Origin: Salvator merianae | Lineage: Eukaryota > Chordata > Lepidosauria > Squamata > Teiidae | Direction of reading: 5' to 3' | Assembly: GCA_003586115.2 (NCBI GenBank) | Contig: QVOM02000034.1 | Location: 110,275,610-110,339,609, forward strand | Length of the DNA: 64,000 bases | Shown here: positions 1,149-58,115 of the stretch, piece after piece | Position numbering within the stretch: position 1 is the first letter of the stretch | How the letters are laid out: every line of letters starts with the position of its first letter | Made by a program: the position numbers and the translations under genes | The notes under the pieces: model-generated | The model's database searches: none | What the model was told of the DNA's origin: nothing | The model's input: only the letters and a program-made list of their open reading frames with translations

Positions 1149-1187
1149 GGTTCAGGCCCCCAATCTGGTGTCCGCATTACCATCCAG
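1149..1187 (+). CDS. Exon 1 of window (GSGPQSGVRITIQ)
   Basis: A 39-nt exon after a strong ttttttctacag acceptor, with donor GTAACG. It reads GSGPQSGVRITIQ in phase 0. It is the first exon I can support; the 1.1 kb upstream shows no signal-peptide exon, so earlier exons lie outside. The valine/isoleucine end resembles the VSVTF segments of the long exon at 7327. Confidence 0.7.

Positions 1188-58115: not shown

Follow-up and report, generated by a model that had tools for sequence, protein, structure and literature searches.

A predicted 59-exon Reeler-domain gene with a microexon-encoded Gly/Ser/Tyr/Gln tail in the lizard Salvator merianae

RESULTS

A predicted Reeler gene that extends beyond the window

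The window analyzed here is a 64,000-nt stretch of the Salvator merianae genome (+ strand, 110275610-110339609), taken from an assembly of 2.05 Gb in 1816 contigs. Coordinates are positions in this window, and negative values denote positions upstream of its start. We modeled a gene (gene B) of 59 coding exons and 1158 residues, which spans 74,959 bases (~75 kb) from -15830 to 59128. The model starts 15.8 kb 5' of the window, and the 43 exons originally reported within the window are very likely part of this larger gene, whose exon chain is predicted to be spliced into one transcript. The first coding exon (-15830..-15635, + strand; 196 nt, ending in phase 1) carries the ATG and a signal-like start, and a signal peptide is predicted at the N-terminus. 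This exon and the Reeler exons (+ strand, starting at -14992, -13332, and -11752) were placed by a motif search, the first 5' clue having come from translated upstream pieces that matched between two regions. Scans for signal exons overlooked the true first coding exons of both gene B and its upstream tandem paralogue (gene A), which the motif search located. The first four exons end in phases 1, 0, 2, and 0, a pattern identical to that of gene A, and 54 internal tail exons, all in phase 0, lie 3' of the Reeler-coding exons. The donor of exon -15830..-15635 scores poorly (below the listing limit of the splice scoring). Because the ATG directly abuts an acceptor, a noncoding exon 5' of it is implied.

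At the other end, the terminal coding exon (59030..59128, + strand) encodes the hydrophobic C-terminus NAVGKQSTTILVLFSVLNTIALSSSVIFKWVI followed by a stop, with a mean hydropathy of 1.85 over 24 residues. A C-terminus of this type is common to turtle P0005, P0006, P0007, P0012, and P0014 and swan P0030, and the turtle and swan proteins end AGKQSSPSLLLLFSVL...KWFI and AGKHSSPRLLLLFSVL...KWSI. A terminal exon at 59106 (SSLNG) was rejected, as the turtle and swan C-termini (P0006 and P0030) pointed to the 59030 exon. A likely polyadenylation signal, AATAAA, lies at 60719..60724 (+ strand), with another candidate at 60388. A GPI or membrane anchor is predicted at this conserved hydrophobic end. 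Anchoring would not be general, because gene A and P0010, P0029, P0036, and P0041 (the last four perhaps being incomplete models) lack a hydrophobic C-terminus.

A Pfam scan of all 1158 residues identified the Reeler domain (PF02014) at 1.6e-29 (103.5 bits against a cut-off of 21) and no other family at E<=1, so that neither a DOMON nor a cytochrome b561 domain was detected behind it. By sequence, the gene B product is thus a Reeler-domain protein, and the first of the four 5' exons also exceeded the cut-off in a genome-wide Reeler search (26.6 bits). The tail of 970 residues (the stop being counted as position 971) contains 108 Gln, 25 Lys, 16 Cys, and 36 QYG motifs.

Internal exons of the tail

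The region 1149-58115, which the initial annotation had taken as the bounds of the gene, contains 43 internal exons in our model, all of them divisible by three, in phase 0, and flanked by AG and GT. Their mean length is 56.3 nt (median, 39 nt), the introns between them measure 125 to 4459 nt, and the coding share is 4.25%. These values bear out the earlier description of 43 symmetric phase-0 exons averaging <60 nt, with introns of over 4 kb and about 4% coding sequence. The further claim that nearly all of the exons encode a single module of 9 to 17 residues fits their length, since 38/43 code for <=17 residues, but not their content: the modules are of several kinds, several are Cys-bearing or basic, and two exons are large (279 and 465 nt).

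The chain search combined consensus splice scoring with residue composition and admitted only stop-free, phase-0, GT/AG exons; because the search required these properties, they prove nothing by themselves. The automatic chain comprised 40 exons in the window. We removed one of these for good (30642-30683; score, 11.9) and added by eye four exons of unusual composition with good splice sites (22585, 24691, 28634, and 35419). The agreement on 43 exons therefore rests partly on our choices. A Pogona protein (P0093) has counterparts of all four, in the same order. Upstream of the window, candidate -3572..-3555 was retained because gene A has RDSTSS at that place. Several acceptors of SYGQ exons score below 0.

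All window exons lie on the + strand. The first four, at 1149..1187 (GSGPQSGVRITIQ; AG/GT, phase 0), 2852..2881 (SGQPGLVCDK), 3241..3276 (TSSSYNSEACKL), and 5514..5561 (TIQSSSSQSSSSFGSQ), are paired with gene A exons -83651, -82490, -82242, and -76691, respectively. They are followed by a large Gly/Ser exon of 93 residues at 7327..7605 (43/93 identical to Pogona P0093) and by exons at 8875..8907 (GYTYDGSSCNQ; Pogona, 6/11) and 10110..10145 (GSSVQQSYGSSQ; 10/12). The exon at 11810..11848 (SGSSSQNIYGGSQ) lies within a tandem duplication described below and fits Pogona poorly; those at 12736..12774 (SGSSSQKIYGGSQ) and 12900..12938 (SASSSQQTYGSNQ) were also part of the duplication analysis, and that at 13067..13108 (GSSYSQGSSNPCDV) resembles gene A exon -71418 by eye. 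Further exons lie at 15097..15141 (GSYSGKITSSSNCPQ), 15515..15553 (RGSSSQQSSGGTQ), 15976..16020 (FGQSGSYGSSSQYGQ; Pogona, 14/15), and 17176..17226 (GGRGGSYSSSSSSQYGQ), ahead of three that were duplicated together with introns, at 17379..17420 (GGQSSSYGSSQYGQ), 17831..17872 (RVQSGSYGSSQYGQ), and 18281..18313 (GGSYGSSQYGQ; Pogona, 10/11).

The next 10 exons are given with their identities to Pogona: 19847..19891 (SSQTNTGYSSNRCDE; 10/15), 21356..21388 (GDASTYGSKAL; 10/11), 22408..22449 (SSANCRGKRDIATQ; 11/14), 22585..22626 (DAFNTFIRKIQEKR; 9/14), the basic exons 24691..24732 (AAPPAPMRKPQSKK; 5/14) and 28634..28666 (VRALRAARSEK; 8/11), 29737..29778 (NETSNLQNANSYGL; 7/14), 34238..34270 (DGSYIQYAENQ; 6/11), 35419..35445 (RDCVCPSAQ; 6/9), and 36085..36120 (GGSFGGVRQYGQ; 9/12). 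The exons of 37993-44434 are without a one-to-one partner in gene A and were modeled from splice signals, phase, and composition; they lie at 37993..38028 (SGSYGGSSQYGQ), 39359..39400 (GEHSGSYGGIQYGQ), 39563..39598 (AGSHGGSNQYGQ), 41320..41391 (DGSYGGSSQYGSGTAYGSSSQYGQ), 41931..41966 (GGSYGGSSQYGQ), 43804..43839 (GGSYGSSNQYGQ), 44146..44187 (GGTSGYGGSSQYGQ), and 44348..44434 (two SYGQ modules). The chain continues with 45658..45696 (NNSSSGSSLAGAQ), 47860..47898 (NSTSSGSTQSGRQ), 49804..49842 (DSTSPSGSQQSGP; aligned with DSTSPSGSRQS of swan P0030), 53870..53899 (YGCYCPGGIS), a large QYGG-repeat exon of 155 residues at 54378..54842, 56477..56536 (GSSYGSSQYGSGRGSQYGGQ), and the last internal exon at 58086..58115 (GSQGYQSHTS). 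An assembly gap of 807 N (46446..47252) in the intron between exons 45658 and 47860 may hide an exon. The sequence beside this gap is very GC-rich.

Chain exons are concentrated on one strand. In -11300..59200, a loose threshold gave 50 on the + strand versus 2 on the - strand, and a strict threshold applied to 224 kb including both tandem genes gave 38 versus 0. The independent test of phase was a frame-blind and length-blind scan of 1-59029, which yielded 30 matches, of which 29 were in frame 0 and divisible by three; the sole exception sits inside modeled exon 7327-7605. The same scan gave no matches on the - strand of this region and none in 5 shuffles, controls that are relative because the score uses the composition of the same exons.

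A tandem paralogue, coding selection, and turnover of modules

Gene A lies upstream at -105085..-70579 and comprises 24 coding exons (517 residues), with a Reeler domain (98.8 bits against the Pfam cut-off of 21) and a microexon tail; its C-terminus is GKDAASYNYNKC followed by a stop, with no hydrophobic end. Of its 20 tail exons, 19 can be paired with those of gene B in the same sequence (score of 519 versus 323 +- 31; 0/500 permutations), the last five pairs of this alignment being weak or doubtful. For 16 tail-exon pairs (14 from the exon-order alignment and 2 picked by eye), dS was 1.49 and dN was 0.39 (pN/pS 95% interval, 0.37-0.59), with 67/55/103 differences at the three codon positions; these values lean toward low dN, given how the pairs were chosen and that the alignment was guided by protein. 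The same pairs are 61.7% identical, versus 27-29% in ungapped intron flanks, and the Reeler parts of the two genes gave similar values (dS, 1.74; dN, 0.43). The third-position excess in the tail exons is hard to explain without coding selection, and these comparisons suggest that gene B is very likely real, coding, and under selection.

The sequence also holds traces of the birth and death of modules. Two self-matches are clear cases of duplication with introns: 17276-17889 against 17728-18330 (82.7%, with 535 intron bases in the match) and 11665-12026 against 12590-12953 (89.8%, introns likewise included). Among the self-matches that touch exons, only 4/43 include >=60 intron bases. Two decayed copies were found (both + strand): the exon copy at 11973..12011, in which the donor GT has become GA relative to the intact duplicate 12900-12938, and a SYGQ-type copy at 36579..36629 (start approximate), which has no AG acceptor. 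These alignments indicate that at least some exons were born by duplication together with introns and were lost through splice-site decay. With phase 0 at both ends of each tail exon, the reading frame would be kept whenever a module is added, lost, or skipped.

Relatives under many names

Among the proteins searched, the best Reeler matches were Hemicordylus for gene A (75.9%) and Elgaria for gene B (68.3%). A search with the first 190 residues of gene B (within a 506-residue query) returned 11 proteins, all from lizards or turtles. A profile search recovered 89 relatives, of which 78 are from turtles, crocodiles, birds, or squamates, 10 are fish FRRS1, and 1 is from Xenopus. There was no mammal among these 89, and with 7984 candidates of limited length scored, absence from mammals is unproved. 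Of the 93 protein sequences collected, 27 were inspected individually. The relatives are named sericin 1-like, hornerin-like, filaggrin-2-like isoform X29, loricrin-like isoform X6, mucin-21-like, dentin sialophosphoprotein-like, or FRRS1 reductase, and the names of the sericin 1-like, hornerin-like, filaggrin-2-like, and loricrin-like kind derive from composition. The swan record is labeled isoform X29 and the sparrow record isoform X6, so that many splice forms are predicted there; these labels are the predictions of others.

The gene B tail fits the tails of swan P0030 (955 versus 596 +- 34), turtle P0006 (264.5 versus 49 +- 28), and crocodile P0029 (652 versus 461 +- 24) in exon order, and for each of these three proteins tested, 0/200 shuffles reached the real score. 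Pogona P0093, a loricrin-like model, follows the 24 exons of 7327-36120 in order (903.5 versus 390 +- 61; 0/500 shuffles), with a poor fit for exons 11810-15553. It has no Reeler domain, and the residues at both of its ends look like read-through into introns. This protein was also the single match when the C-terminal part of gene B was compared with the protein collection (7993 scored of a larger candidate set).

Five lizard models were assigned to gene B (P0001, P0002, P0003, P0004, and P0093), none of which is complete. Counted by eye, about 5, 7, and 9 tail modules are present in the Heteronotia, Elgaria, and Podarcis models, respectively, before these break off; the Pogona model holds only a middle piece; and in Euleptes europaea P0001 (LOC130473210), gene A is joined to the beginning of gene B, which is a read-through or annotation error. 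The expectation of the initial annotation that gene finders would miss most of the gene was thus borne out for these five models, and its view of the chain as one Gly/Ser/Tyr/Gln gene agrees with the exon order of gene A, the Pogona model, and the turtle, swan, and crocodile proteins. It had overlooked the Reeler domain, the signal-like exon, the true ends, the tandem copy, and the sauropsid-wide family. Its suggestion that the gene may be undescribed stands in part: among the matches listed in our literature search, no paper described a sauropsid family with a Reeler domain and a microexon tail, but relatives are present in databases. The family members are catalogued there under misleading names.

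Genomic neighborhood

Downstream of gene B, an exon at 86754-86828 encodes part of a nucleotide-sugar transporter (27.8 bits against a cut-off of 27), which we take to be SLC35A3. It has 24/25 residues as in turtle P0015, a protein that fuses the gene B family to that transporter, a domain combination also listed for bird P0080. The gene B family thus appears to adjoin SLC35A3. An exon at 136948-137229 is presumably MFSD14A, with a weak MFS match (0.074, below the cut-off). AGL lies about 5 Mb away (105.32-105.33 Mb), and a Reeler gene within about 0.1 Mb of it (105.32-105.43 Mb) is taken as putative FRRS1. In humans, AGL, FRRS1, and SLC35A3 are neighbors, and an inversion has likely separated AGL/FRRS1 from SLC35A3. 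A genome search for DOMON gave 8 matches, none of them on the contig of gene B; it also missed the putative FRRS1 locus and so had little power.

More Reeler exons lie about 56-60 kb upstream of gene A (110108804-110111977 and 110.110-110.115 Mb), and that at 110108804-110111977 resembles the FRRS1-type Reeler domains of fish. A cluster of Reeler genes may be present at this locus. Compared at the DNA level with the 80 kb on its 5' side, the window gave 60 matches, which we take as interspersed repeats; none among the matches listed touches a window exon. One interspersed repeat (AACATAAGAACATAAGA...GCCCTGCTGGATCAGGCC...) has copies at 4480-4700, 31450-31660, 35670-35880, and 63890-63980, three of them intronic, and these are about 73-92% alike to copies 5' of the window. 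By eye, 13.4-14.7 kb and 61.0-61.6 kb also share similar segments, probably of a mobile-element family.

Fold and comparison with known systems

Evidence on the fold comes from the turtle relative P0006 rather than from the lizard protein. An AlphaFold2 model of P0006 (26 sequences) gave ten-residue mean pLDDT values of 71-90 over residues 41-160, except for one loop with a mean of 51, and values nearly all below 50 over residues 168-477, with a helix at 480-492. The best Foldseek match of this model was the F-spondin Reeler structure 2zot (8e-10). As modeled, the turtle relative thus has the Reeler beta-sandwich fold, and the tail is predicted to be disordered.

Gene B shares with FRRS1/SDR2 an N-terminal signal peptide (predicted in gene B) and a Reeler domain. 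Fish FRRS1 proteins were the next-best matches (10/89), and many bird records of the gene B family are labeled FRRS1; however, gene B has a microexon-coded low-complexity tail in place of DOMON and cytochrome b561. Xenopus protein P0092 (194 residues) likewise has a signal-like start, a Reeler domain, and a hydrophobic C-terminus but lacks the microexon tail. The turtle, crocodile, and bird proteins P0005, P0012, P0029, P0030, and P0041 resemble gene B in their Reeler domain and similar tail modules; P0005, P0012, and P0030 also have its hydrophobic C-terminus, whereas P0029 and P0041 end differently. How many modules there are, and of which kinds, differs between these relatives and gene B, and SYGQ exons have been added in the squamate copy.

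The proteins from which the family borrows its names are built differently. Hornerin and filaggrin have an S100 domain and a three-exon gene, and loricrin has one large coding exon in the epidermal complex, whereas the gene B model has 59 coding exons and no S100 match in Pfam. Schistosome micro-exon genes use runs of tiny symmetric exons to produce variable secreted proteins; they belong to another lineage. In SCPP genes, small exons are in phase 0, the signal-peptide exon ends in phase 0, and there is no folded domain. Gene B differs from these in that its signal exon ends in phase 1, it has a Reeler domain, and it lies at another locus. SCPP genes such as amelotin are described as having many small exons, lineage-wise gain and loss, and a secreted product (PMC4373244). 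Dermokine, considered as a Gly/Ser protein with small exons, was rejected on account of the Reeler domain and the SLC35A3 neighbor.

DISCUSSION

We consider it fairly probable that the 43 exons are the tail part of a 59-exon Reeler gene and that its product is a surface-coat protein, either secreted or anchored in the membrane, whose Gly/Ser/Tyr/Gln tail is disordered. What the sequence itself shows is the exon chain, a Reeler domain, hydrophobic ends, the paralogue, the sauropsid relatives, and the excess of dS over dN in 16 tail exons; the surface-coat role is suggested solely by composition. We infer a role at an epithelial surface or in a secreted coat, in which the tail would be set by module number. 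Tandem duplication that copied introns along with exons would have made at least two module sets, and tails that vary in length and in stickiness may result from alternative splicing. The tail would display the Reeler domain at the epithelial surface, and Tyr, Gln, and Cys side chains may assist self-association or cross-linking of the tail.

A possible but doubtful alternative is that the protein is secreted and serves in defense or iron handling, with the Reeler domain active and the tail a passive spacer. Names of relatives such as putative defense protein Hdd11-like and ferric-chelate reductase are in keeping with it, as are the putative FRRS1 at a distance of about 5 Mb and the other Reeler locus, which precedes gene A by about 56 kb. 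The product has no DOMON or cytochrome b561 and is therefore no reductase, and the dN/dS of the 16 tail exons, which equals that of the Reeler part, would be unneeded for a pure spacer.

It is quite unlikely that the region is divided between a Reeler gene that, like gene A, stops early (near 19.9-22.6 kb) and a separate SYGQ-repeat gene after it. Gene A does stop at a point equivalent to about 19847-21388 of gene B (a weak pair), the Pogona model lacks the Reeler domain, and the window contains one signal-like candidate (36004-36120). However, swan P0030 and turtle P0005 and P0006 combine a signal-like start, the Reeler domain, the tail, and the shared C-terminus in a single protein, and the Pogona protein follows exons on either side of the supposed boundary, up to 36120, with ends that look like intron read-through. 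The signal-exon scans gave no other candidate in the window, a weak argument given that the same rules overlooked the first exon of gene B. A decaying pseudogene or noncoding relic resembling exons, for which the two broken module copies (donor lost at 11973-12011 and acceptor lost at about 36579-36629) might speak, and against which a stop-free model is no proof because the exon search demanded open frames, is most improbable given a dN well under dS in the 16 paired tail exons, the single phase shared by nearly all frame-blind matches, and the exon order common to bird, turtle, and crocodile proteins.

SYGQ modules resemble the phase-separating tails of the FUS type. We put forward, as an idea that we still hold unlikely, that gene B belongs to an unrecognized reptile and bird family of anchored extracellular proteins, in which a FUS-like Gly/Ser/Tyr/Gln tail is a polymer whose modules are each encoded by a single exon. 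With more than 50 exons that leave the frame intact, splicing would let a cell adjust how long and how sticky an extracellular condensate or fiber coat is, and lineages would evolve the tail by single-exon copying.

Apart from that idea, the gene B model unites reptile and bird models named hornerin, filaggrin, loricrin, sericin, mucin, dentin, and ferric reductase as one family with one architecture. It also provides a natural example of a low-complexity protein that is assembled from single exons, and a single sequence displays both the birth and the death of its modules. Should transcripts bear out that modules are chosen by splicing, the tuning of disordered extracellular polymers by cells would become directly testable.
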